The notes below the pieces were generated by a model. That model did not search any database, was not told the DNA's origin, and saw only the letters and a list, made by a program, of their open reading frames with translations. Position numbers and translations under genes: made by a program. Shown here one piece after another: positions 9,444-30,908 of a DNA stretch of 31,070 nt (position 1 is its first letter; each line of letters starts with the position of its first letter). The stretch is from a virus. The DNA is taken from positions 1 to 31,070 of IMG/VR virus record IMGVR_UViG_3300013772_000037; one strand, 5' to 3'.

Positions 9444-10301
9444 ATGGCCAGAAGTATATCAACGATTCAACAGCAGATCCTTGACAACATAACAGCGGAC
9501 CCAACAATCGGCCCGGCACTAACGAGCACCAGTAAACGGGCAATATTTTTAATATTAGCCTTCATTGTTGCCACAGCTATAAACCTCCTGGAGCAACTGA
9601 TCGACATTTTTACTTTGAACGTTGAAGCAATAGCTGCAGCTGCAGCACCGGCAACAGCCGCCTGGATCCAGGCACAAATTTTTAAATTCCAATATTCGGC
9701 GACGGTGCCGCAGACGATCCAAATAATCAACCTTGCCCCTTCATACCCGATCATTGACACCACGCTACAAATCGTTACCCGCTGCAGCGTTACCACATCG
9801 GTAGCAAACCAGGTGCAGATAAAAGTGGCAAAGGGGACGCCCACGCCCATAGCACTTGTTACAGCAGAGCTGAACGCCCTGAAAGCATACATCAATCCGC
9901 CCTACGGCGTTGGAATTGCCGGCGTAACATACAATATTACCAGCGGCAACCCGGACCAGCTATACCTCGCGGGCACTATTTTCTATAACGGAGGATACAG
10001 CGCCGTAATTTCCGCCAACGTTATCGCAGCAATCACAACCTTCTTAACAACGGTACCTTTTAACGGGCAGATGAAACTTTCAGATCTGGAGCTGGCCATT
10101 CGGGCCGTCGCCGGCGTTAACGATGTTTTACTTGTGAATGTAGCCGCTCGATCTGACGCCCAGGCATTCGGAACAGGTACCAGCCTGATACTTTCGCAAA
10201 CAGTACTCGCGCGTTTATGGAATACCGTTAGCGGGTACATAATCCCGGAAACAACAGCAGGACAAACACTCGCCACAAGCCTAACATTTACAGCAGAATG
10301 A
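9444..10301 (+). CDS. baseplate assembly protein J-like (Mu gp47 type)
   Basis: A 285-residue baseplate wedge candidate. The N-terminus has the hydrophobic helix SKRAIFLILAFIVATAINLL seen in J-like proteins of Bacteroidota phages, then WIQAQIFKFQYSATVP. The C-terminal half has the typical J pattern: IFYNGGYSAVISANVIAAI, VPFNGQMKLSDLELAIRAV, AGVNDVLLVNVAARSD. It joins the hub to the fibres at the tail tip. In most Mu-like phages this gene follows gp46; here it is about 14 kb upstream of the gp25/gp46-like gene, within the head-neck region. Confidence 0.75.
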   Translation: MARSISTIQQQILDNITADPTIGPALTSTSKRAIFLILAFIVATAINLLEQLIDIFTLNVEAIAAAAAPATAAWIQAQIFKFQYSATVPQTIQIINLAPSYPIIDTTLQIVTRCSVTTSVANQVQIKVAKGTPTPIALVTAELNALKAYINPPYGVGIAGVTYNITSGNPDQLYLAGTIFYNGGYSAVISANVIAAITTFLTTVPFNGQMKLSDLELAIRAVAGVNDVLLVNVAARSDAQAFGTGTSLILSQTVLARLWNTVSGYIIPETTAGQTLATSLTFTAE

Positions 10302-10561
10302 TACCAAAACTTATTTTAATAATCTGGGCGATGGCGAACATTACACTGTTTTTGGTTGCAGGCTGCAGCCAAAGAGATATCCCGCAGGCTGAGATCGGCA
10401 CCTTCGAAGTGATATCAGCCGACACGATACCACAGTACACCAATAGCCGGTACGTTACCACATGGTATGACATTGCGCACAAGGTGACCTATACGGTATA
10501 TACTAACTACCCCTCCGGGTTTAGGAAGGGACAAACCATACCAGGACTCATAAGAAAATAA
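10298..10561 (+). CDS. small lipoprotein
   Basis: An 87-residue protein with a lipoprotein signal: a hydrophobic segment (LILIIWAMANITLFLVAG) ends in a lipobox V-A-G-C with Cys23 as the modified residue. The mature part of 65 residues is polar and beta-prone (VTTWYDIAHKVTYTVYTNYP). It would be anchored in a membrane facing the periplasm or outside. It overlaps the J-like gene and abuts the next baseplate gene, yet a lipoprotein is not a virion part. Superinfection exclusion or receptor blocking are known jobs of phage lipoproteins (for example T5 Llp); that is inference here. Confidence 0.7.
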   Translation: MIPKLILIIWAMANITLFLVAGCSQRDIPQAEIGTFEVISADTIPQYTNSRYVTTWYDIAHKVTYTVYTNYPSGFRKGQTIPGLIRK

Positions 10562-11235
10562 TGGCCAACATAAACGATATCAGCTTTTCAAAATTCGCGC
10601 AAAGGATGCTGCCACCGGACAAACGCAACCCGGTCATCACTGCGTTTTTGAATGCGCTGCTGGCACCGCTGCAGTGGATCTCCCGACTTTGGCTGGTAGA
10701 ATACACCGCCGGCACGACCGCGGCTGCCTGGTCTAACGCCATCACCTACGCGAAATATGACCAGGTGATTTATCAAAAAGTTGTTTTTGAAAGCCAGATA
10801 AACGCCAACACGTCCAACCCGCTAACGCCCATCAAATGGACAGTGGTACAAAATAATTTTATAGGCCTTGGAGAGCGGATCCTTTACAACGGGGGATGCC
10901 TGACATTGACCTATGCGCTAAACAAATGGTTCGGTACCGTATTCCGCCAGGCCACAGCGCTCAGTGATATCTACATCTCAACCAACACCCTTGTGGCGCC
11001 AGTTTTTCGGGTAGGAACTACCGAGGGACAAAGCAGCTCCGTGAGCACGATAGGCTCATCGGAATTCGTGGGTACCTCGGACGCGATCACCGTAGCGGTC
11101 AACATTTCAATCTTTGTCCCGGTCGCTGTTTACAACACCCTTGATGTAGCAATGATCAACAACAACAAAATTTTTAGAAATTTCGCTGACAGGTACATCC
11201 CTGCAGGACTTATTTATACGGTATCAACTTATTAA
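10561..11235 (+). CDS. baseplate/tail protein with chitin-binding-like module
   Basis: A 224-residue structural protein directly after the J-like gene. The first 50 residues are helical (KRNPVITAFLNALLAPLQWI). Residues 57-97 form a module AWSNAITYAKYDQVIYQKVV followed by FESQINANTSNPLTPIKW with the same spacing as the inserted modules of the connector gene at 3649 (W..a..Y..yD.V.......F.s......P...W). The C-terminal half is beta-rich (SSEFVGTSDAITVAVNISIF). It is likely a baseplate wedge or fibre-anchor protein in the place of Mu gp48; that is inferred from order. Confidence 0.6.
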   Translation: MANINDISFSKFAQRMLPPDKRNPVITAFLNALLAPLQWISRLWLVEYTAGTTAAAWSNAITYAKYDQVIYQKVVFESQINANTSNPLTPIKWTVVQNNFIGLGERILYNGGCLTLTYALNKWFGTVFRQATALSDIYISTNTLVAPVFRVGTTEGQSSSVSTIGSSEFVGTSDAITVAVNISIFVPVAVYNTLDVAMINNNKIFRNFADRYIPAGLIYTVSTY

Positions 11236-11237
11236 AA

Positions 11238-11540
11238 TTGAAAAAATATTTTGCCTTTTTATTACTATTGGCTGGTTGCACCGTGACTATCCCCATGCAC
11301 CTCCCGATACCAACACCCGAACCAACCCAAGTGAAACCGCAGGCGGACACCGCATGGAGAACGCTCGAGTTTATAAAACTGAATTCCTGCTGCTATGACA
11401 CCAGCCGCAGCATCAGTGATGAAATGCCAGGGATACTACAATACGATTCTACAAATTGGGAGTACAGACAAACAAATTCTAACGGCAAGATAATGCGCGA
11501 ATGGCGGAGAATTAACGATACAATAAATCACAACCTATGA
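11238..11540 (+). CDS. small lipoprotein
   Basis: A 100-residue protein starting at TTG 11238, three bases after the previous stop. The first 13 residues (KKYFAFLLLLAG) and Cys14 form a lipoprotein signal with lipobox L-A-G-C. A proline-rich linker follows (IPMHLPIPTPEPTQVKP) and then a small charged domain with a CC pair (LNSCCYDTSRSISDEMPG). This is the second predicted lipoprotein in the baseplate block. The proline linker could span from the membrane. Function unknown; exclusion or envelope modification is possible. Confidence 0.7.
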   Translation: MKKYFAFLLLLAGCTVTIPMHLPIPTPEPTQVKPQADTAWRTLEFIKLNSCCYDTSRSISDEMPGILQYDSTNWEYRQTNSNGKIMREWRRINDTINHNL

Positions 11541-12310
11541 AAAAACTTGATCTATCCAGCGTAAGCGCTACAAACCAATTCCCGGTAAAAGAAGGCACAC
11601 TGGACTTTATAAACCTGGCATACCAGGAATGCATAACGGCACTCGGCAATAATTTGCTCGGAGACAAAGCTAACTCGGCCAACGGATATCGCCTGTACGG
11701 GTGTAAGAACACCGGAACCGGATTAAACTTTATAATTTCCGCCGGCGCGATCTTTTATGGCGGTGAAGTTTTCCTGGTACCAGCCGCAACCTTTACTGCA
11801 GCAGGCGGACAGACAGCGGTGGCAAATATCGTTATCACCCAATACACAACCAACGCTGACCCCGTAATTTTTACAGACGCCGTATCCCGGAACGTTCACA
11901 ATATACGGTCGGTAGTTTTCGCATCGGCGGTAAGCGCAAGCGGCCTTTTTGATTTCAACAACATACGCGAAACGACGATCGGATTAAAGAATGATATCCA
12001 GGCCACACTCCCCTCATCATACACCGCAACCTTTGAACAGGACCGCGCCACATTCTTTACTTCGGCAACGGTAAACAGTACGATCACCTTCGATTTCACG
12101 GACGCGGTACCAGGGACCGTGGTACGATTGAAGTGGACTTTTGGAGCTGGACTAACGCTCACCATAAACGTCCCTGCAGGATCCACGATCATCCGCGATT
12201 CAGGCAACCTGGCCGCGGTGGCATCAGCCAACAACCTCCTTTATTTCATTTACCTGGGTAAAAACGAGGTCGGAAATGATGAGGTTTCATATACTTTAAA
12301 ACAATATTAA
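11537..12310 (+). CDS. tail fibre / baseplate-attached structural protein
   Basis: A 257-residue protein. The N-terminus (DLSSVSATNQFPVKEGTLDF, then INLAYQECITALGNNL) is of the kind found in baseplate-anchored proteins of Bacteroidota phages. The middle is a beta-rich segment (NFIISAGAIFYGGEVFLVPA) like collar domains of fibres. The C-terminal 90 residues (TVNSTITFDFTDAVPGTVVR ... NEVGNDEVSYTLKQY) look like a small jelly-roll tip domain. It probably trimerises and forms a tail fibre base or short fibre. It overlaps the previous gene by ATGA. Family call is by pattern only. Confidence 0.6.
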   Translation: MKKLDLSSVSATNQFPVKEGTLDFINLAYQECITALGNNLLGDKANSANGYRLYGCKNTGTGLNFIISAGAIFYGGEVFLVPAATFTAAGGQTAVANIVITQYTTNADPVIFTDAVSRNVHNIRSVVFASAVSASGLFDFNNIRETTIGLKNDIQATLPSSYTATFEQDRATFFTSATVNSTITFDFTDAVPGTVVRLKWTFGAGLTLTINVPAGSTIIRDSGNLAAVASANNLLYFIYLGKNEVGNDEVSYTLKQY

Positions 12311-16022: not shown

Positions 16023-16388
16023 ATGCCAACAGCAAGAATCACCCCCGGAACAAATCAGGACGTAACCAGCGCCGTTCTAAACAACGACTATCAGGCACCC
16101 GTATACGCCGCAACGATTTCGCCCGTAATATTTGCCGCACGGACGGTTATAGGCCCGATAGCCTTAACAGGAGCTTTGACAATTAACCCATCTATCGCGC
16201 AAAGTTTTATTGGCGATGAGTTAGCCCTGATATTCACAAACGGAACCGCTGGAGCTCTTGTGGTGACACTCGGAGCGAACGTATCCTCTATCGGCACACT
16301 TTCAGTAGCAGCCGGTAAAAAAGGAACCATATACGCTGTTTTCGATGGCGCAACATGGGTAGAATCAGGCCGCGCAGCAACCGTATAA
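16023..16388 (+). CDS. capsid decoration-like protein
   Basis: A 121-residue beta-rich protein. The middle (GALTINPSIAQSFIGDELAL, IFTNGTAGALVVTLGANV) and end (GKKGTIYAVFDGATWVES) resemble small trimeric decoration domains or fibre-tip folds common in Bacteroidota phages. It lies directly after the major capsid gene, the usual place for a decoration (head-stabilising) protein. Inference from fold style and position. Confidence 0.55.
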   Translation: MPTARITPGTNQDVTSAVLNNDYQAPVYAATISPVIFAARTVIGPIALTGALTINPSIAQSFIGDELALIFTNGTAGALVVTLGANVSSIGTLSVAAGKKGTIYAVFDGATWVESGRAATV

Positions 16389-18306: not shown

Positions 18307-18999
18307 ATGAACAGTGGAGTATATAAAATAAGTTCTTTGATTGACAATAGGGTGTATGTAGGGAGCGCAAAAGACTTCAATAAAAGAAGCCGCTCACATT
18401 TTCTAAGGTTAAAGAAAAACGAACATCACAGTATTAAGTTGCAAAATTTTTACAACAAATACGGACGGGATGCATTGCTTTTCGAGATCATAGAAAATTG
18501 CGAAATCGAAAAACTGATTGAAAGAGAGCAACACTACATTGACACTTTAAACCCGTTTTTTAATATCCTAAGAATCGCATACAGCTCACTTGGTAGGATA
18601 TCTCCTATGAAGGGGAAAAGGCACTCTGAAGAAACAAAAAAGTTAATCGGTGAGGCCAATGCAAAAAGGATGTGGAGCGAAGAAAGTAAAACAAAAAGCT
18701 CTGAATCGAAAAAGGGCAAAAAAATGCCACCAGACTTTGCTGCTAAAATAGCCCTTGTAAATAAGGGAAGAAAAAGAAGTTCGGAGACAAAACGTAAAAT
18801 GAGCCTCGCAGGTAAAGGCCGGATAATACCAGAAAAGACAAGGCTGGCAATCGCAGAAGCAAACAGAAATAGAGTATTTACAGATGAAGCGAGGAAAAGA
18901 ATGTCAATAGCATTAACTGGGAGATTCTGCTCAGAGGAGTCAAGAAAAAAAAGAAGCGATACAATGAAACAAACCTTACTTAAAAAGAAACTTAAATAA
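18307..18999 (+). CDS. GIY-YIG homing endonuclease with NUMOD3 repeats
   Basis: A 230-residue free-standing nuclease. Residues 1-80 contain the GIY-YIG core: GVYKI at 4-8, YVGSAKDFNKRSRSHF with R27 and H31, NKYGRDALLFEI, and the acidic metal site in LIEREQHYID (Glu74). Residues 100-225 are five or more NUMOD3-like DNA-binding repeats with the S/T-E-E-T/S-(R)KK pattern (GKRHSEETKKLIGEANAK, RKRSSETKRKMSLAGKG, RFCSEESRKKRSD). It cuts DNA to copy itself into alleles lacking it. It is rich in A and G and lies between sheath and tube genes, which are normally neighbours, showing an insertion. Confidence 0.9.
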   Translation: MNSGVYKISSLIDNRVYVGSAKDFNKRSRSHFLRLKKNEHHSIKLQNFYNKYGRDALLFEIIENCEIEKLIEREQHYIDTLNPFFNILRIAYSSLGRISPMKGKRHSEETKKLIGEANAKRMWSEESKTKSSESKKGKKMPPDFAAKIALVNKGRKRSSETKRKMSLAGKGRIIPEKTRLAIAEANRNRVFTDEARKRMSIALTGRFCSEESRKKRSDTMKQTLLKKKLK

Positions 19000-22134: not shown

Positions 22135-23370
22135 ATGCTAACTCCGATATCAAAAATAACTTTCACACAGCAAATCACGGCCAACTTCCCGAACAGGAAA
22201 GCCGTCATGGTTTACAACTTCGCACACGAATACAAGGTCGCTTCCTCATGGCGCGACCTTACCGATGACGGAGAGATCACTCTGCCGAAAAAAGTTACTG
22301 TTGTTGACCAGAACGGAAATCCAGTATGGGTAGGCGGCGACAATACAAACATTGGCGGATTTTCATCAACGCCGCCACTTTTCCTGCGCGGCGACAAGGT
22401 GAAAATAGAATGGGGGTACGCCTACTATGATAAAGCCGGCAATGAAATAGCCCCGCTGCAGCAAATCTTTACCGGGTACATTTCCGAGGTTACCAGCAAA
22501 AAACCATTTGTGATCAAGATACAGGACAATATGTACATCCTAAAACAGAACCCCGCTACCGGCGGAAACAATAACTTCTTTGCTGGAAGCAAGTACACCG
22601 TCGAATCGATGCTGGCAGAAATGATCAGCAACGCTGGCCTGCCATTCACAGTGAACAGGACTACCAGCACCTCGATCGGTGACTTTCGTGTACAGAACCT
22701 TACCATTTGCGAGGTGCTCAGCGAGCTGCAGAAACTTTGCCACTTTGAAGCCTATTTTAAAGGCAACGAACTGCGCATAGGTTCCCTGGTTTATTTCGAC
22801 AGCGACGCCGGCCCTGCACCATATTATAAATTCAAATTTCAACAGAATATTATAAGCGACGATCTGGACTACAAGCGCAAAGATGACGTGGTACTTTCGG
22901 CCATAGCAAAGAACACCATCGAAGAAACAACGGGCAAGACCACACGGGATGGCCATGCAAAAACAAAGAAGGTAAAGCTCGAGGTTTTGGTAACCTTCCG
23001 CAACGGCAACTCCACACCGACCTATTTCGTCGCATCCAAGGACAACCCTATCCCTGCAAATGAAGGCGGTGAGCGCCGTACATTTTTTTTCATGGGCGCA
23101 AAGACAACCGGTGAACTCGAGCAGCTGGCGACAGACCAGCTGAAGAAATATTACTATACCGGGTTCCGGGGCAAGTTTAAAACTTTCGGGATCCCTTTTA
23201 TGCAGTTTGGAAACAACCTCGACCTGATGGATGACGTGCTCCCGGAGCGCAATGGACGGTACAAAATAAAATCGGTGACTTACACCGGAGGAGTGCAGGG
23301 ACTGAGGCAGGAAATTGAACTGGACTTTTTGATCACGGCACTGGACAGCGCAGGCAAACCAATACAATGA
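22135..23370 (+). CDS. baseplate hub protein (late control gpD / Mu gp44-like)
   Basis: A 411-residue protein of the gp27-like hub fold. It has an early strand block (VMVYNFAHEYKVASSWRDLT), a LRGDKVKIEWGYAYYDKAGN segment, FTGYISEVTSKKPFVIKIQD (the GYI.... pattern that is typical of hub domains), a helical ESMLAEMISNAGLPFTV, and LSELQKLCHFEAYFKGNELR. The hub sits at the tail tip and holds the spike. The stop overlaps the spike gene start (ATGA). It follows the same order as in Mu and P2 relatives. Confidence 0.8.
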   Translation: MLTPISKITFTQQITANFPNRKAVMVYNFAHEYKVASSWRDLTDDGEITLPKKVTVVDQNGNPVWVGGDNTNIGGFSSTPPLFLRGDKVKIEWGYAYYDKAGNEIAPLQQIFTGYISEVTSKKPFVIKIQDNMYILKQNPATGGNNNFFAGSKYTVESMLAEMISNAGLPFTVNRTTSTSIGDFRVQNLTICEVLSELQKLCHFEAYFKGNELRIGSLVYFDSDAGPAPYYKFKFQQNIISDDLDYKRKDDVVLSAIAKNTIEETTGKTTRDGHAKTKKVKLEVLVTFRNGNSTPTYFVASKDNPIPANEGGERRTFFFMGAKTTGELEQLATDQLKKYYYTGFRGKFKTFGIPFMQFGNNLDLMDDVLPERNGRYKIKSVTYTGGVQGLRQEIELDFLITALDSAGKPIQ

Positions 23371-23939
23371 GCGATCGCAACATACAAGAATGCATCCAAA
23401 AGCTGGCAGGCACACACACCGACGACAAAGTGTACCTGGTAGCGGCAACCGTTGACTCGGTAGATATGCCCTCGAGGACATGCAACGTGACCACGATGAC
23501 CGGGAAGCAATCAACAGCCATCGAAGGCGTGAAACTCATGCCAGAGATCGATGATGGATTTTTGCTGATCCCAACCGTAGGCTCGACCGTTTTTTTAAGT
23601 TATTCGAATTACAATGTGCCCTTTGTTGCTCAATTTAGCGCGATCGACCAGGCGCTGATCATTTCAGGAAACAGCCAGCTATCCATCACCGACCAGAAAA
23701 TCCAACTCAATGACGGAAGCTATGGTGGCCTGATACAGATCCAAAAGCTCATCACGAAGATCAACAACCTGGAGAACCTGGTAAACGATTTGGCGGCCAA
23801 ATTTAACACGCATTCCCACATCCTGACACTAACCAGCGGGACTGGAACCGCGGCGCCGACAGCCGCACCCGAGACAAACGTACTAACACCAACACAGCAG
23901 ACGGACATAGAAAACCCGTTGATCACCCATGGCAAATAA
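23367..23939 (+). CDS. baseplate spike protein (gpV / Mu gp45-like)
   Basis: A 190-residue spike candidate. The N-terminal 85 residues form an OB-like domain (DKVYLVAATVDSVDMPSRTC, DDGFLLIPTVGSTVFLSYSN). A narrow repetitive beta part (SQLSITDQKIQLND) and a coiled helix (LITKINNLENLVNDLAAKFN) follow. The segment THSHILTLTSGTGTAAPTA has the HxH pattern near the tip that coordinates iron in P2-type spikes. It pierces the outer membrane on contraction. It overlaps the hub and the wedge gene by 4 and 11 bases. Confidence 0.8.
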   Translation: MSDRNIQECIQKLAGTHTDDKVYLVAATVDSVDMPSRTCNVTTMTGKQSTAIEGVKLMPEIDDGFLLIPTVGSTVFLSYSNYNVPFVAQFSAIDQALIISGNSQLSITDQKIQLNDGSYGGLIQIQKLITKINNLENLVNDLAAKFNTHSHILTLTSGTGTAAPTAAPETNVLTPTQQTDIENPLITHGK

Positions 23940-24240
23940 AACAAACCAAGACCTCGCTATAATAAACAACGACCTGATTATTTTAAACGGGGATTTTGCC
24001 ATTGCCGCCAGCGACGTACAGCACATTGATGACACTATAAACGCCTTTCCGGGATGGTGGAAAAATAACCCGGCGGATGGTGTCGGAATATTTCAATACC
24101 TGAATAGCGCAGGCCAGGAGCAAACGATAAAAAGAGCACTCATCCTGCAGCTAACATCCGACGGGTACCAGGTATCAAACCCCTCCGTAAGCACCGACGC
24201 TGCAGGCAATTTAAACATATCGCCCAATGCAACAATTTAA
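23929..24240 (+). CDS. baseplate wedge protein (gp25/Mu gp46-like)
   Basis: A 103-residue protein with the GPW/gp25 layout: an N-terminal strand NNDLIILNGDFAIAASDVQH, a helix DDTINAFPGWWKNNPADGVG (the L...GE..W-type turn of the family), a helix AGQEQTIKRALILQLTSDGY and a short end. It forms the first ring of the baseplate wedge. Its end overlaps the LysM-like gene by 14 bases. The adjoining J-like gene expected next is instead at 9444. Confidence 0.75.
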   Translation: MANKTNQDLAIINNDLIILNGDFAIAASDVQHIDDTINAFPGWWKNNPADGVGIFQYLNSAGQEQTIKRALILQLTSDGYQVSNPSVSTDAAGNLNISPNATI

Positions 24241-24544
24241 CGGGGTACAAGGGCAGAGCCTGATGGATGTATGCCTCAACACGTATGGGAGCCTTGACTT
24301 CTTTTTTAAGCTCCTTCGGGATAACGGAATTGCCTCCGCAAATTCCACAGTGATCACGGGGCAGGTATTTATCTGGGATGATAGCTTGGTACAGAACCAG
24401 CAAGTCAACCAGGCCTATGCCGCCAGTGGGATTATTTACGCCACCGAAATCGGAGCATCACAGCAAACATCCGGCGATGCAATTATAACGGAGGATGGGT
24501 TCTTTATAATCAGCGAAACAGGCGGGAATGTGATTGAACAATAA
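24227..24544 (+). CDS. LysM-like tail protein (tail protein X type)
   Basis: A 105-residue protein starting with GQSLMDVCLNTYGSLDFFFK, the (G.S..D.....YG....) entry of a LysM domain as in tail protein X that links hub and tube. It continues LLRDNGIASANSTVITGQVF. The end has a repetitive acidic element (DAIITEDGFFIISETGGNVI) also common in Bacteroidota fibre and tail genes. Binding to peptidoglycan or to the hub is inferred. It overlaps the wedge gene and is the last gene of this block. Confidence 0.7.
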   Translation: MQQFNGVQGQSLMDVCLNTYGSLDFFFKLLRDNGIASANSTVITGQVFIWDDSLVQNQQVNQAYAASGIIYATEIGASQQTSGDAIITEDGFFIISETGGNVIEQ

Positions 24545-24643: not shown

Positions 24644-26377
24644 ATGAAAAAAATACTCATTTTTTTAACAACCCTGATCTGCAGCACCGCGGGATTTTCA
24701 CAGGTCAAGATCTCCGATATGCCGACATTTACCGGCAACCCCTCCGGGAGCTGGGTGCCAATCGTTGTCGCCGGCGTTAACCGGAAAATTGATGGTGTTT
24801 ATTTTGGGTATAATAAACTTGATCTCATTTTTAGGAAGATTGGCACCGACAGCTTATTCTCTACCATTAACGGCGTTAATACTTTTGTCACCATGATTGA
24901 CACCTCCACCGCAGGCAGTCAAAGTTTTAATTCAGTGACCGCAATTGGAAATACTTCTAACCAAAGTATCATAGTACACAACACAAACGGCATAGACGTT
25001 CAGGATGCAGGATTTCCTCATACTCATATGTACCCAAATGAGGTAGGCGTTGCGGACGTTCATAGTGTTTTCTTACACACAGCCAATATGGCCTATGTGA
25101 ATAATGGATTTACAAAATTTATTACGCCATTAGAAGGGACGCTAACTGTAAATAGCACGAATTCTTTTCCAAAAACTAGCGGCACGCTGGTCACATCCGT
25201 TGGAGGAAATACTGCCGATTCAAATGGTAATATATCATCCGCCGGTTCAGCCACCAAACTAACCACCGGAAGAACCATATCCATAACCGGGGACGTAACT
25301 TATACCAGCCCCGCCTTTGATGGTACTGCAAATGTTACCGCGGTCGGGACGGTTACTCAAATCAACGGCACCAACTTGTCCGGTTTAGGAACCGGCATAG
25401 TAAAAATTGCAGCCGGCATACCTGCTATTGCTGCCAATGGCACTGATTACTTATCCCAAACCGGAACCGCAACCGGCGTGACAAATAAAGCATTTACAAC
25501 GGGTAACTCAGCCGTGACACAGGCATTAACTGATAGCACAACTAACCTGGCAACAACCGCACAAATAAAACTGGACTCGATAAGAGCAGAACACATTTAC
25601 GGCGGACGGGTAGATAGTTCGCATTTATTCGTAAGAAACCTAAATTTAAAATACCCGCTAAGGGCCAACGCAACAAACGATACAGCGTACCTTAATCAAA
25701 GCTGGCTGGACAGCTCCAATCTTATTCTTACAACAACGGGATCATCCGGCGCGGCCAATATGAACCAGGCAACAAAGACTTTAAATATCCCCAATTATTC
25801 GGACAGTTCCACACGTAAAAGCAAAATCTATGGCCTTTTAGGGTCGCAGATAAAAGCAGAGCCTATAAGCGGCGACCTATCAATGCAGAGCAACGCGATT
25901 GCTTTAATCTCGGGTACAGCCCGATACATAGTGGTTTACCTACCCAGCCAGCAAACTATAACCGGTGTAAAATGGTTTCAATCTGTATTAGGTTCATATA
26001 CTGCAACTGGTTATAATGGGATCGCATTGTATTCTTTAAGTGGCGGCACTCTTACATTAATAGATTCAACTGTAAGAGACGGAACAATATGGCAGACCGC
26101 AGCCTCGGCGACCTGGGCCAGTAAGGCATTCCCGTCAACACATTTGCTTAATGCCGGAGTCTATGTTGTCGAACTACTTTATATAGAATCAGCACAAACA
26201 ACAGCCCCACAAGTAGGAGCTTACGCCAACGCCACTGCGGGGGCTACACAGATCGGAGATTTTACAAATAGCAATAAATTAAACAGCGCTGAAGTTAGCG
26301 CTACCCTCCCACATGCAACCATAGCGATGTCGGCACTTTCGGTCAGCGGTAACATGTTTTATGTCGGAGTTTACTAA
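24644..26377 (+). CDS. tail fibre-like protein with Sec signal peptide
   Basis: A 577-residue protein. Residues 1-19 are a Sec signal (KKILIFLTTLICSTAGFSQ). Then KISDMPTFTGNPSGSWVPIV is a typical fibre start, and residues about 205-265 contain fibre repeats (TTGRTISITGDVTYTSPAFD, GTVTQINGTNLSGLGTGIVK). The C-terminal 180 residues form a beta-rich tip domain with carbohydrate-binding style (YTATGYNGIALYSLSGGTLT). A signal peptide is unusual for a virion fibre assembled in the cytoplasm. The protein may be exported or surface-displayed, or the segment may be an N-terminal anchor. A-rich leader precedes the ATG. Confidence 0.7.
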   Translation: MKKILIFLTTLICSTAGFSQVKISDMPTFTGNPSGSWVPIVVAGVNRKIDGVYFGYNKLDLIFRKIGTDSLFSTINGVNTFVTMIDTSTAGSQSFNSVTAIGNTSNQSIIVHNTNGIDVQDAGFPHTHMYPNEVGVADVHSVFLHTANMAYVNNGFTKFITPLEGTLTVNSTNSFPKTSGTLVTSVGGNTADSNGNISSAGSATKLTTGRTISITGDVTYTSPAFDGTANVTAVGTVTQINGTNLSGLGTGIVKIAAGIPAIAANGTDYLSQTGTATGVTNKAFTTGNSAVTQALTDSTTNLATTAQIKLDSIRAEHIYGGRVDSSHLFVRNLNLKYPLRANATNDTAYLNQSWLDSSNLILTTTGSSGAANMNQATKTLNIPNYSDSSTRKSKIYGLLGSQIKAEPISGDLSMQSNAIALISGTARYIVVYLPSQQTITGVKWFQSVLGSYTATGYNGIALYSLSGGTLTLIDSTVRDGTIWQTAASATWASKAFPSTHLLNAGVYVVELLYIESAQTTAPQVGAYANATAGATQIGDFTNSNKLNSAEVSATLPHATIAMSALSVSGNMFYVGVY

Positions 26378-26386
26378 ACAAAAAAA

Positions 26387-28402
26387 ATGAAAAAAATATT
26401 TGTATTCACAGCGATTTTCTTATTTGTTTGCGCCCATGCCTTCTGCACGAACTGGTACTTTGCCGCATCCGGGAGCGATGCCGCTGCAGGAACCATCGGC
26501 GCCCCATGGCAAACCATTACAAAATTCAACTCAATAAACGGAAGTGAAGCCGCAAACGACTCCTTTCTTTTTAACCGCGCGGATATTTTTTATGGCGCGA
26601 TGATCATCGCCAGGTCTACCATTAACATCGGCGCGTACGGTACAGGAGTGAACCCGAACATAACAGGGTTTACAACGGTGAGCTCCTGGACCTCGATCGG
26701 AACCAACCTATGGGAAAGCTCGTCAGCAATGTCTACGCTGGCCACATGCACCCTGGTTACAATTAACGGAGTAAATATGGCCAATGGAAGATACCCAAAT
26801 ACCGGGTACCTCCCGTACCAAACTTTTACGACCTCCTCCATTACATCCAGCAGTCTAACCGGATCCCCGAATTGGAGTGGCGGAACCGCAGTAATAAGGA
26901 AAAATAATTACTTTACTGACAAAACCACGATCACATCACAGGCGACAACTGTATTAAATTTAGCGTCTAACCCTTCCGGGATAAGTGGCACCGCTAACTA
27001 TGGTTTTTTTATTCAAAACGACAGCCTTGCACTCGATACAACAGGGGAATGGTATTACAACCCTTCAACAAAAAAGCTAAGAATTTACAACACTACTTCG
27101 CCAACTAACGTACAAGCCACCACGCAGGATACGCTGGTTTACATGAGTGGCCGAAATTTTATCTCGTTCAGTAATATCAACTTCACAGGATCCAACACAG
27201 CAACCATACTTTTTAACACCTCCACAAACCTAACCGTTTTAAATTGCCAGCTTAACTATGCAGGAATCGACGCCATCCTTCAGAACGGCGCGAGCTCGGA
27301 CGCCCCGACTATACAAGGGAGCTACATAAATAACACCGGGAACAATGCTATTTTTTTGGGAGCGGGGGGCACCAACCATTATATCGGATTTGATACCATA
27401 AAGAACAACGCCACCATTCCAGGTACCGGGAGCTCGAGCGGATCTACCTATATCCCGATCACAGTAAATGCGCTGGGCACGATTGAAAATAACTGGATAG
27501 ACTCTTGCGGCCACCACGGCATTGTTTGGAATAATTCCAATGAAGACATAAGGAAAAACAAGGTGTCTAATTTCAACATGGTTAAAATAGATGGCGGCGG
27601 AATTTATAGCTATTTCGGGATAGTTAGTGGAGGGGGAAGCACAAGGACAAATCAAAAAGTTGATTCTAATATTATTTTAAACGGGATTGGATCAAACGTT
27701 GGAACCACAAATTCAGGGGCTCCGATCTGTCATGGCATATACCTGGACGGATTAACCTCAAGTGTAGAAGTTTACGGGAACACATGCGCCGCCAACGCTT
27801 TCTCCGGAATTTTCGTTAATAGCGCAGACTCATTGATAAATGTACACGACAATACCTGCTACGACAACGGAATCCAGTTTCTAGTTTACTCAACCGTTTC
27901 AACATTGCCAGATAAACTTTTAAGCGTTAAACACAATAAGTTTATTTCTAAAACCTCTACAGAGTACGCTGCCAGTTGGAATACATTCCAGGCCGTTACC
28001 GACATCTCAACATTCAGCACAGCGGCAAACACAGATACTAACTACCTGGCACGCCCTATCGACGACAATCTGACTATTCAAATTACCTCTAATAATTTTG
28101 TTTCGCAAAGTAACAACACACTTGCTCAATGGGTGGCTTATTCGGCATTTGATTCGCACTCATCTAAGTCACCAAAAACGATTAGCACAACAGCAGATCT
28201 CGACTTTGAATATAATTCTACAAGCTCACCCAAAACCGTCTCCCTTCCTTTTAATTACATGGACATAACCGGAGCGACATACAATGGATATGTTACCGTG
28301 CCAGCTTACGGATCATGGGTAGGCATTAAGAATGGAGCAATTATAGGAAGCCAGATAATAAACTTATACGGCAACTGGAAACTAAAAAACATTTTGCCGT
28401 GA
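26387..28402 (+). CDS. secreted right-handed beta-helix (pectate lyase-like) protein
   Basis: A 671-residue protein. Residues 1-18 are a Sec signal (KKIFVFTAIFLFVCAHA). It continues with WYFAASGSDAAAGTIGAPWQ, the standard entry of beta-helix polysaccharide enzymes (SGSD..GT...PW.TI). Many rung-like repeats follow in the middle (FISFSNINFTGSNTATILFN, NHYIGFDTIKNNATIPG, VYGNTCAANAFSGIFVN). The fold could be a depolymerase or fibre-associated enzyme that degrades or binds surface glycans. Catalytic residues cannot be assigned by eye. Its stop overlaps the GTG of the next gene (GTGA). With its neighbours it makes a set of three exported proteins. Confidence 0.7.
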   Translation: MKKIFVFTAIFLFVCAHAFCTNWYFAASGSDAAAGTIGAPWQTITKFNSINGSEAANDSFLFNRADIFYGAMIIARSTINIGAYGTGVNPNITGFTTVSSWTSIGTNLWESSSAMSTLATCTLVTINGVNMANGRYPNTGYLPYQTFTTSSITSSSLTGSPNWSGGTAVIRKNNYFTDKTTITSQATTVLNLASNPSGISGTANYGFFIQNDSLALDTTGEWYYNPSTKKLRIYNTTSPTNVQATTQDTLVYMSGRNFISFSNINFTGSNTATILFNTSTNLTVLNCQLNYAGIDAILQNGASSDAPTIQGSYINNTGNNAIFLGAGGTNHYIGFDTIKNNATIPGTGSSSGSTYIPITVNALGTIENNWIDSCGHHGIVWNNSNEDIRKNKVSNFNMVKIDGGGIYSYFGIVSGGGSTRTNQKVDSNIILNGIGSNVGTTNSGAPICHGIYLDGLTSSVEVYGNTCAANAFSGIFVNSADSLINVHDNTCYDNGIQFLVYSTVSTLPDKLLSVKHNKFISKTSTEYAASWNTFQAVTDISTFSTAANTDTNYLARPIDDNLTIQITSNNFVSQSNNTLAQWVAYSAFDSHSSKSPKTISTTADLDFEYNSTSSPKTVSLPFNYMDITGATYNGYVTVPAYGSWVGIKNGAIIGSQIINLYGNWKLKNILP

Positions 28403-28845
28403 GAAAACTACTCACCATATTACTACTTCTCTTATCGCTGCGGTCAAAAGAGCAGAGTTACGTATTACAATGGACAGCGTCCGGACAAGTGAAAGATAGC
28501 GTTCAACAAAGTACGGACAGCATTCATTTTTCCACCATTTCAGTTATTAATGGCGGCGTAGATAGCTGCGTGGTTCCTAACGCAACTTATTATTACCAGA
28601 TCAAAGCTAATACTTTAAAGAGTAATGTACTTCTTGTTACAGCAGTTCACGGCAAGATCAAAAATATTTCAGCCGTTCAATATGGTAGCAACTTAATAAG
28701 AGTATCGAGTAAAGAACCTGTAAAAATTTATAATTCGGTAGGGCAACTGCTTACTGAAGTAACCGGAGAAAGTTATGTGCAGGTATCGCACGGTATCTAC
28801 TTTATTGTGAGCGCAGATGATTCAAAAGAAATATTTATACAATGA
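28399..28845 (+). CDS. exported protein with FN3-like and T9SS sorting-like segments
   Basis: A 148-residue protein starting with GTG overlapping the previous stop. The N-terminus is a hydrophobic signal (RKLLTILLLLLSLRSKEQS). Residues 20-80 resemble an FN3-like domain (YVLQWTASGQVKDSVQQSTD, then TYYYQIKANTLKSNVLLV). Residues 88-148 resemble a type IX secretion (Por) C-terminal sorting domain: VKIYNSVGQLLTEVTGES, VSHGIYFIVSADDSKEIFIQ (the vyn..Gq...., G.Y.v pattern with a basic-strand end). If correct, the protein would be carried to the cell surface by the host T9SS. This is inference from the pattern. Confidence 0.6.
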   Translation: MRKLLTILLLLLSLRSKEQSYVLQWTASGQVKDSVQQSTDSIHFSTISVINGGVDSCVVPNATYYYQIKANTLKSNVLLVTAVHGKIKNISAVQYGSNLIRVSSKEPVKIYNSVGQLLTEVTGESYVQVSHGIYFIVSADDSKEIFIQ

Positions 28846-29174: not shown

Positions 29175-29405
29175 ATGGCACAAAAAAACATCTGGGAGCG
29201 CATAACGAGCGAAACTCCCCTGCTATTTAAACGGGTGATAAATATATCTCTCGCAGCTTCTGCAGCCTCCGTGGCGGTATTGGCCTCCCCCTGGCACATA
29301 TCGGCATACATTCACACGATCTGTGAGCACATAGCCGTGGCTGGAGTAATTGCTGCAGCGGTAAGTAAAACAACGGTTGTGGATCCAAACAAACCAACAG
29401 TATGA
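29175..29405 (+). CDS. holin-like membrane protein
   Basis: A 76-residue protein with two hydrophobic stretches (INISLAASAASVAVLASPW at 23-42 and HTICEHIAVAGVIAAAVS at about 47-64), separated by a short loop. Two short membrane helices and a small size are typical of class II holins. It precedes the spanin-like gene with ATGA overlap. Function inferred from shape and place in the lysis cassette. Confidence 0.65.
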   Translation: MAQKNIWERITSETPLLFKRVINISLAASAASVAVLASPWHISAYIHTICEHIAVAGVIAAAVSKTTVVDPNKPTV

Positions 29406-29890
29406 GAAAGTATTTTTTAATCGCTTTAATCGTGTGCGGGTGCGCAACCGCCAAAGACAACAAAGCCGTGAGCCGCGTAATAAGTAACCCTGCGCTAACG
29501 ACTAAAGTGGGCCGGGTTTGGGAACGCGCTAACCCCTGCACGGTTGATACCATAATTACTTTTAAAGATGGGGTCGCGACCGTAACTTATGATACGCTCC
29601 CCGTTAATACGATAGTTTACGATACCACGTTTAAAAAAATTCCTGTAACTGAATACAAAACGATTTTAAAGACCGTAAGCACAACCGATACTATCAAGGT
29701 AATGCAGACGGACACACGAAGATTATATCTGGCATTACAGGACAATGCAACCCTACAGGGCAAGTATGAACAGCTAACGCAGAGTTTCAGCGAAATCAAA
29801 AAGAGCTCCAATAAAAAAAGCTGGTACATAGGAGGATTGATAGCGGCGCTATTGGTGGGAATTTTCTTTAAGATTAAAAACATTATATGA
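29402..29890 (+). CDS. unimolecular spanin-like lipoprotein
   Basis: A 162-residue protein with an N-terminal lipoprotein signal (KYFLIALIVCG, Cys14 in V-C-G-C) and a C-terminal membrane helix (SWYIGGLIAALLVGIFFKIK, about residues 140-158). Between them is a periplasmic domain with predicted strands (VDTIITFKDGVATVTYDTLP) and a helical part (QDNATLQGKYEQLTQSFSEI). A lipid anchor at one end and a membrane helix at the other, in a lysis operon, is the architecture of unimolecular spanins (phage T1 gp11), which fuse or disrupt inner and outer membranes. Function is an inference from architecture. Confidence 0.65.
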   Translation: MRKYFLIALIVCGCATAKDNKAVSRVISNPALTTKVGRVWERANPCTVDTIITFKDGVATVTYDTLPVNTIVYDTTFKKIPVTEYKTILKTVSTTDTIKVMQTDTRRLYLALQDNATLQGKYEQLTQSFSEIKKSSNKKSWYIGGLIAALLVGIFFKIKNII

Positions 29891-30366
29891 CCGGAGATCA
29901 ATTAACACCCTCACCCAACTGCCTCGCCTTCATAATGAAAGAGGAAGGTTGTGTTTTACATTCGTATCAGGACAGCGCTGGCGTCTGGACAATTGGATGG
30001 GGCAGCACCATGTACAAAACCGGCAAGCGCGTAGGACCAGGTGAAACCATCACCCAGGCACAGGCCGACGATCTGCTCAGCTGGGAGATAGGCAACAAAT
30101 CTCCTTCAGTTTCGGCATTCACCAAAGGAGTTATCCTGACCCAAAATCAGTACGACATGCTGGTTGATTTTGCATACAATGCCGGCATCGGCGCCCTGCA
30201 GAATTCAACCCTTTTAAAAAAGCTCCGGTTCAATCCAAACGATTACAGCATACGCGACGAATTTGCCAAATGGAATAAGATCCACGTAAACGGAAAGGTG
30301 GAAATTTGCCCTGACCTAACCGGAAGGCGTAAGAGAGAAAGTGACATATACTTTACATTACGATGA
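29887..30366 (+). CDS. endolysin, GH24 lysozyme
   Basis: A 159-residue T4-type lysozyme. The catalytic set is visible: Glu20 in KEEGCVLHSYQDSAG, Asp29 in the same segment and Thr35 in VWTIGWGST. Later family blocks are present (LTQNQYDMLVDFAYNAGIGA, STLLKKLRF, GRRKRESDIYF). It cleaves peptidoglycan between NAM and NAG. No signal peptide is seen, so it would need a holin, two of which are encoded just upstream. It overlaps its neighbours on both sides by 4 bases. Confidence 0.95.
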   Translation: MTGDQLTPSPNCLAFIMKEEGCVLHSYQDSAGVWTIGWGSTMYKTGKRVGPGETITQAQADDLLSWEIGNKSPSVSAFTKGVILTQNQYDMLVDFAYNAGIGALQNSTLLKKLRFNPNDYSIRDEFAKWNKIHVNGKVEICPDLTGRRKRESDIYFTLR

Positions 30367-30908
30367 AAATATTACTTCTTCTATTGGTTACTTCTACATG
30401 TTTTAGCCAGAATGTTTTTCATGGCTGCCCGCTAACTGGAGACAGGTCCATATCCGCAGACACTTTAAAAAATCGTTGGATAATTCCTGCCTCGTACAAT
30501 AAGATGCAACTAAGTTATCTCCTTAATTTAAAGAACAACTCTTTTAATAGCACGGCACCCGTTGAAATTGAAGGCTATATTTTAGAAGTAAAGGATGGTG
30601 GCCTCGAATCAACCAATTGCCATAGTTCAGTTTATAAAGACACTCATATTTATGTTGTCAATAACCCTAATGAAAAAAGTAAGGCTAACGCAATGGTTGT
30701 TGAAGTAACACCACGCCTTCGTGAAAAAATGATTGATTGGACAACGAAAGGATTAAAATCATTTGTTGGCAAATACGTTGTAATTGACGGTTATCTTTTT
30801 TGTGATTCAGAACACAAACAGAATAGTAAAGCAGATTCACCAAAAGGGGGTAATATTTGGCGTTCAACTTGTTATGAAATTCATCCTGTAACCGGTATTA
30901 AATTTTAG
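30363..30908 (+). CDS. secreted accessory protein, conserved type with EIHPVT ending
   Basis: A 181-residue protein with a Sec signal (KILLLLLVTSTCFSQ). The mature part has VEIEGYILEVKDGGLESTNC, DTHIYVVNNPNEKSK, AMVVEVTPRLREKM, YVVIDGYLFCDSEH and a final WRSTCYEIHPVTGI, a pattern that suggests an OB-like beta barrel with paired cysteines for use outside the cytoplasm. It does not belong to phage assembly. The gene is richer in A and T than the tail genes. It follows the lysozyme (ATGA overlap) and precedes a terminator, the usual place for a lysogenic conversion gene. Actual function unknown. Confidence 0.7.
   Translation: MKILLLLLVTSTCFSQNVFHGCPLTGDRSISADTLKNRWIIPASYNKMQLSYLLNLKNNSFNSTAPVEIEGYILEVKDGGLESTNCHSSVYKDTHIYVVNNPNEKSKANAMVVEVTPRLREKMIDWTTKGLKSFVGKYVVIDGYLFCDSEHKQNSKADSPKGGNIWRSTCYEIHPVTGIKF

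Follow-up and report, generated by a model that had tools for sequence, protein, structure and literature searches.

The usual view is that tailed-phage virions are completed in the cytoplasm. In filamentous phages, the virion proteins pIII and pVIII are made as Sec precursors and are cleaved by signal peptidase. A 2021 study of flavophages attributes "signaling peptides" to the Ingeline and Nekkels lyases in one sentence, and with no interpretation (PMC8776804). Our literature searches for phage fibers bearing signal peptides in Bacteroidota found no description of the whole pattern reported below, and pieces of it sit unlinked in public records.

The window analyzed here is a stretch of 31,070 nt (IMG/VR record IMGVR_UViG_3300013772_000037, positions 1 to 31,070) and represents a 31-kb fragment of a contractile-tailed Bacteroidota phage. 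Genes for terminase, portal, ClpP-type protease, capsid, sheath, tape measure, and hub were recognized in it. The hub and gene order resemble those of Winoviridae, such as Flavobacterium phage lotta8-1 and Winogradskyella phage Peternella_1. The baseplate hub (22135..23370, plus strand; phrog_4930, E = 2e-42) is 25–38% identical to those of Winoviridae phages, and protease-MCP-sheath-TMP-hub-gp25-X synteny is common to both. Baseplate J/I-like genes (9444-12310; MARSISTIQQQ..., 224 aa, 257 aa) lie between portal and protease in the window and not beside the fibers, in contrast to Winoviridae. A homing-endonuclease-like gene (18307-18999; phrog_314, E = 6.5e-32) separates the tail sheath gene from the tail gene that follows. 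Beside the endolysin, a protein with a lipoprotein-type N-terminus and a C-terminal transmembrane segment (29402-29890; also at L018 13908, L021 15231, and L022 15449) is probably a unimolecular spanin, and a 181-aa protein with a signal peptide (MKILLLLLVTSTCFS|QNVFHG) and no strong family match is encoded after the endolysin at 30363-30908.

Signal peptides in the fiber slot

Three adjacent ORFs, 24644-26377 (577 aa), 26387-28402 (671 aa), and 28399-28845 (148 aa, starting at a GTG that overlaps the stop of the ORF before it), had been singled out in the first-pass annotation as carrying Sec signal peptides (SPs), and all three ORFs are real. SPs were called using an in-house heuristic for the n-, h-, and c-regions. 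Sec/SPase I features, namely an n-region, a hydrophobic core, small residues at −3/−1, and retention among relatives, were found at 24644 and 26387 and were weak at 28399; clear SPs therefore stand for two of the three proteins, and the third is only SP-like. In the 577-aa protein, the SP covers residues 1-19 (24644..24700, plus strand) with the cut predicted before Q20, giving the junction MKKILIFLTTLICSTAGFS|QVKIS. The predicted junction in the 671-aa protein is MKKIFVFTAIFLFVCAHA|FCTNW. The 148-aa protein starts MRKLLTILLLLLSLRSKEQ, with n- and h-regions present and a poor cleavage site.

The 577-aa protein (24644..26377, plus strand) has the makings of a tail fiber. Its gene directly follows the gp25-like gene and a small gene, X, of LysM-type baseplate character, and the protein comprises the SP, a KISxLP-type docking-type N-terminal domain (N-domain) at about residues 20-52, repeats, and a variable C-terminal tip at about residues 376-573. 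The C-terminal domain recurs at 47% and 40% identity in loci L002 and L003, respectively. L003 comes from the same metagenome as L002, on a different contig, and its fiber with this tip domain (1-1058) adjoins a sheath-like gene, which suggests that the tip domain swaps between phage types. Small fiber-adjacent proteins ending in a WGxDxxIDDYIL-like motif, some with an SP and others without, were observed in several relatives (L002 7138-7428, L003 1071-1373, L011 12675-13004, L035, and L058 6590-6952) and may be fiber accessory proteins or chaperones.

The 671-aa product (26387..28402, plus strand) was annotated as an SP-bearing virion-type protein with a right-handed beta-helix (depolymerase/tailspike-like). 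The beta-helix had been claimed at first pass; PF13229 matches with E = 2e-4, though at 21.5 bits, below the gathering score of 25.9, and we consider the fold likely. No relatives of this protein were found in single-protein searches. It is probably a second virion component, glycan-binding or glycan-cleaving.

To collect relatives, the gp25-like baseplate wedge gene (23929..24240, plus strand; phrog_120, E = 0.0022), which is kept in all of them, served as the anchor, because an alignment of the hub proved too divergent to scan contigs with. Clear anchor matches gave ~150 IMG/VR loci plus three MAG contigs, and the non-redundant set comprises 74 loci. Among the 17 close relatives collected first, X is always followed by a gene for a long SP-bearing fiber, nearly always cut before Q. 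Across the non-redundant loci, the slot protein has an SP in 37/74 (SP+) and lacks one in 37/74 (SP−). The SPs commonly end A/S|Q, with Q at +1 in 31/33 non-redundant SP+ fibers and A, S, or G at −1 in 33/33. Q at +1 is also favored in the SPs of our host sample (mostly Chitinophaga qingshengii). Some SP+ fibers have family matches to tail spike, tail fiber, BppL_N, or depolymerase. The tail proteins examined in the Bacteroidota phages immuto and Panino carry no SPs.

As a chance level, 13/505 upstream late genes of the relatives (≥150 aa) score as SPI, and many of these 13 belong to recurrent families; we therefore rejected the occurrence of SPs in the fiber slot by chance (37/74 versus 13/505). 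An internal start that skips the SP was also rejected, as translation from the next ATG (MPTFTG) would leave the protein without the conserved KIS motif. The earlier proposal that export is part of the plan is upheld to this extent: the SPs are real, conserved, and probably used.

The N-terminal domain, baseplate protein X, and virion membership

After its SP, the window fiber begins QVKISDMPTFTGNPSGSWVPIV. One N-domain occurs in both forms, as ...FS|QVKISDMP with an SP in the window and as MADLKISNLP without one. The window type opens SP-less fibers of the same slot (MADLKISNLPAATG, MSTKISELPSYTG, and MADKKITELP) and other SP+ fibers (L034, L073, L079, L082, L131, L177, and L199). A second type, INTNG...ITGAxLN, is likewise present with an SP (L194 and L031) and, in several loci, without. 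Counted by type, N-domain B is found in 8 SP+ and 12 SP− fibers and N-domain D in 2 SP+ and 6 SP− fibers. Predicted cleavage yields nearly the start of the SP-less fibers, and on the gp25 tree the SP label needs ~6 changes, at least 3 of them on supported branches. Judged by sequence, the SP is an add-on to an N-domain common to SP+ and SP− fibers, and this domain would be the one through which the fiber docks. The nearest relative of the window, L034, has an SP fiber whose N-domain is 53% identical over 53 residues (E = 9e-13), followed, as in the window, by an SP-bearing protein. This second protein is like the window beta-helix protein only at its start, with no Pfam hit and no significant full-length similarity to it.

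The product of X (24227..24544, plus strand) was predicted by AlphaFold to have a beta-alpha-alpha-beta LysM-like fold, with pLDDT ~92 for residues 10-50. Foldseek gave only weak matches (E = 0.17 at best), and the top ones include chains from phage and contractile-injection-system baseplates, such as 9gtp_M and 7aeb_M. The C-terminal tail of X (IITEDGFFIISETGGNVIEQ) is a candidate docking site for the fiber N-terminus, a role suggested by co-variation. When X tails were sorted into classes by eye, after seeing the data, and compared with the fiber N-domain types, the pairs were A/A in 22 loci, B/B in 14, and D/D in 6, with none crossed among these types. Because the classes had been drawn in this way, an unsupervised test was also run: X-tail similarity predicts fiber N-terminus similarity with gp25 similarity controlled (partial Mantel r = 0.35, p = 0.0005, n = 74). 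The co-variation holds in both SP+ and SP− fibers. These patterns point to the X tail as the holder of the fiber N-domain, in which case the SP+ fibers would be virion fibers. An N-domain common to SP+ and SP− fibers, together with X-tail co-variation, makes the 577-aa protein of the window look like a virion tail fiber with an added export signal.

Support for virion membership also comes from cultured phages. We read the genomes of Ingeline and Nekkels and traced homologues into phages of Cellulophaga baltica. In GenBank, gp101-103 of phi19:1, gp085-087 of phi18:3, and gp091-094 of phi10:1 bear the note "annotation based on experimental MS/MS proteomics analysis", and all of them open with a clear SP, e.g., MKKIFSILILLSCFYINA|QGVAPL. 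SP-bearing tail-module proteins are thus recorded in Cellulophaga virions, on the basis of a database note on unrelated phages, and by analogy the result may carry over to the window lineage. The first-pass annotation had reasoned that signal peptides imply a plan other than the virion, a view contradicted by these SP-bearing tail-module proteins noted as virion proteins and by the N-domain shared with SP-less fibers of the slot. It had named, as a result that would refute its own reading, the finding of all three proteins in purified virions with uncleaved N-termini; of this, presence in virions is recorded in the GenBank notes, for unrelated phages only.

The alternative of non-virion export holds that these proteins are surface-displayed or secreted adhesins or depolymerases that act during infection or lysogeny, for instance in capsule trimming or superinfection exclusion. 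The SPs are real, the beta-helix domain would suit such a role, and periplasmic glycosylation sequons are enriched (see below). We nevertheless consider it improbable, given the position in the fiber slot, the N-domain common to SP-less fibers, the co-variation with a baseplate protein, and the Cellulophaga notes. Moreover, in four near-complete SP+ genomes the SP+ protein is the sole long fiber-like ORF.

Export, glycosylation sequons, and type IX secretion

A T9SS-like sorting end had been claimed for the 148-aa protein (28399..28845, plus strand), with the proposal that it is a shared carrier taking the fiber and beta-helix proteins to the cell surface by hijacking the host type IX system. 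We find a weak SP and a possible FN3-like plus CTD-like end. The end resembles TIGR04183 only in the middle of the profile (VKIYNSVGQLL...HGIYFI), the N-terminal part of the domain being absent, and its score of 15.4 bits falls below the cut-off of 23. Against a profile derived from six host sorting domains (one mis-framed), it scored 4 bits, within the shuffled range, and no TIGR04183 hit turned up when the window and 16 related phage records were scanned in six frames. The protein is an orphan, with no relatives in single-protein searches, and AlphaFold of it alone was uninformative (pLDDT 44.6). Many sorting domains are present in the genomes of those MAGs, and of the one isolate, in which a contig matched the gp25 anchor, and for this reason the end could possibly be an acquired host fragment. 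That abundance and the partial profile resemblance speak for a type IX hijack. Set against them, the sub-cut-off and shuffled-level scores, the missing part of the domain, the lack of a sorting domain in the syntenic relatives tested, and the orphan status of the protein make it very improbable. In Peternella_1, the positional counterpart of 28399-28845 is a 121-aa SP-bearing protein before the holin (L006 15509-15874), whose end (LPKGYYIVALT) bears a weak likeness to a sorting domain.

The O-glycosylation sequon of Bacteroidota, D-S/T-[A/I/L/V/M/T], is used in noncytoplasmic proteins (PMC12871550), and we counted it in the slot proteins. SP+ fibers contain 320 sequons versus 111 ± 9 after shuffling (2.9-fold), or 86 versus 56 ± 5 with repeats collapsed. 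SP− slot proteins are at chance (62 versus 58 ± 7 shuffled). Within N-domain type B, with S allowed at the third position, the counts are 49 versus 24.5 for SP+ and 25 versus 23.7 for SP−. The E-S/T and N-S/T controls were flat, and third-position preferences agree with the sequon. For comparison, enrichment is 1.5-fold in host exported proteins, 1.1-fold in host soluble proteins, and 1.3-fold in phage head/tail proteins. The window fiber itself has 5 sequons versus 2.5 expected, and the spanin-like protein at 29402-29890 is also sequon-rich (4 versus 0.7). Cellulophaga SP+ proteins are depleted (15 versus 36 ± 6), and Cellulophaga SP-less tail proteins are at chance. Gain and depletion together suggest that these proteins meet the glycosylation machinery and are selected either to carry or to avoid the modification, and the overall pattern (up in SP+, chance in SP−, down in Cellulophaga SP+) fits real export; the SP/sequon association comprises only 2 supported independent contrasts, and no phylogenetically rigorous link was obtained.

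SP-like starts were also seen on the capsid side. The gene that immediately follows the major capsid gene (decoration slot; 16023..16388, plus strand) has an SP-less product in the window, and homologues of this product have an SP in 15 non-redundant loci and none in 10, the window included. Sequons number 27 versus 8.7 ± 2.7 in the SP+ forms and 9 versus 6.2 ± 2.5 in the SP− forms. These data hint at a second, independent sign of late outer decoration. Homologues include those at L011 2779-3213, L016 2679, L020 2745, L023 2982, L060 1366, L067 1490, and L082 2069, and the SP-bearing form reads QSTSPRFGTxxNxDNTGRVLTY. In L067, L068, and L070, the decoration-slot protein has an SP and the fiber does not.

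Capsids are not exported. The major capsid (or capsid-position) proteins of Winoviridae nevertheless have an SP-like hydrophobic N-terminus (L004 3125-4222, L005 3158-4240, and L006 2798-3805), possibly a propeptide or a device for membrane-linked head assembly, and an SP-like stretch can therefore mean something other than export. This observation favors the main rival among explanations that keep the fiber in the virion, whereby the hydrophobic segment is a membrane tether or propeptide that keeps the fiber at the inner membrane during assembly, and either signal peptidase or a protease of the phage removes it, with no periplasmic release. Such a tether would explain a similar segment on capsid proteins that must stay cytoplasmic, but the conserved SPase I-type site with the +1 Q preference of the host and a sequon bias like that of periplasmic exposure are both unexpected in cytoplasmic proteins. 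We regard the tether as unlikely.

The reading that we prefer, and hold to be reasonably probable, divides virion assembly between two compartments. The 577-aa fiber, as receptor-binding protein, and the 671-aa beta-helix protein would be made as Sec precursors and exported by the host, and signal peptidase I would remove the SP, leaving the mature N-terminus QVKISDMP..., equivalent to the SP-less start MADLKISNLP.... The mature fiber would fold and trimerize in the periplasm, within reach of the host O-glycosylation system. The cytoplasm would be the site of head and contractile-tail assembly. Once holin and endolysin have opened the membrane and wall, the contents of both compartments would mix and the fiber N-domain could dock onto the C-terminal tail of LysM-like X on the core virion. 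Export and virion membership of the fiber are well supported, albeit indirectly. Cleavage itself, periplasmic folding, and docking at lysis we infer, docking being the least supported step of the scheme. Counting against it are the SP-like start of Winoviridae capsid proteins, the sequon depletion in Cellulophaga SP+ proteins, the small number of independent SP/sequon contrasts, and the SP-less tail proteins of immuto and Panino.

Implications and comparison with known systems

A broader claim can be put forward tentatively, as somewhat less than an even prospect: that the tailed phages of Bacteroidota include a large class whose infectious core is built in the cytoplasm, and that fibers, glycan-active spikes, and, in relatives of the window phage, the decoration-slot protein are Sec-exported, clipped, O-glycosylated in the periplasm, and added at lysis, with a modular SP that the same docking domains have acquired and lost several times. 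If true, host Sec, signal peptidase, and glycosylation become phage assembly steps, phages could wear host glycans, intracellular particles would be fiberless until lysis, and Bacteroidota phage proteins predicted to be "secreted" would often be virion fibers. An SP on a phage gene is no evidence of a non-virion role. The cultured Cellulophaga phages make a direct test possible.

Several known systems share features with this locus. The closest in position are the tail fibers or spikes of Winoviridae (lotta8-1 gp046 and Peternella_1 gp53), which occupy the same slot after gp25-like and LysM-like baseplate genes; these two lack an SP, whereas the window fiber and those of 36 other non-redundant relatives have one. 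Like the fibers and spikes of contractile-tailed phages in general, the window fiber appears to combine N-terminal docking with C-terminal tip domains. Cellulophaga phages phi19:1, phi18:3, and phi10:1, along with Nekkels and Ingeline, have similar runs of SP-bearing fiber or lyase genes, pectate lyases among them, at the end of the tail module, but they belong to other families (Assiduviridae, Pachyviridae, and Duneviridae), the mature Cellulophaga SP+ proteins have no detected homology to the window proteins, and their sequons are depleted where those of window-type SP+ fibers are enriched. Type A cargo of type IX secretion (TIGR04183) resembles the 148-aa protein in having an SP at one end and, weakly, in its C-terminus. 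It differs in that the 148-aa score is below the cut-off with the first part of the domain missing, and the fiber and beta-helix proteins have no such domain. Filamentous phages assemble in the membrane without lysis, whereas the window phage is lytic, tailed, and cytoplasmically assembled. Tail fibers are a known kind of protein; for lytic tailed phages, a Sec-tagged variant of the virion fiber appears not to have been described.
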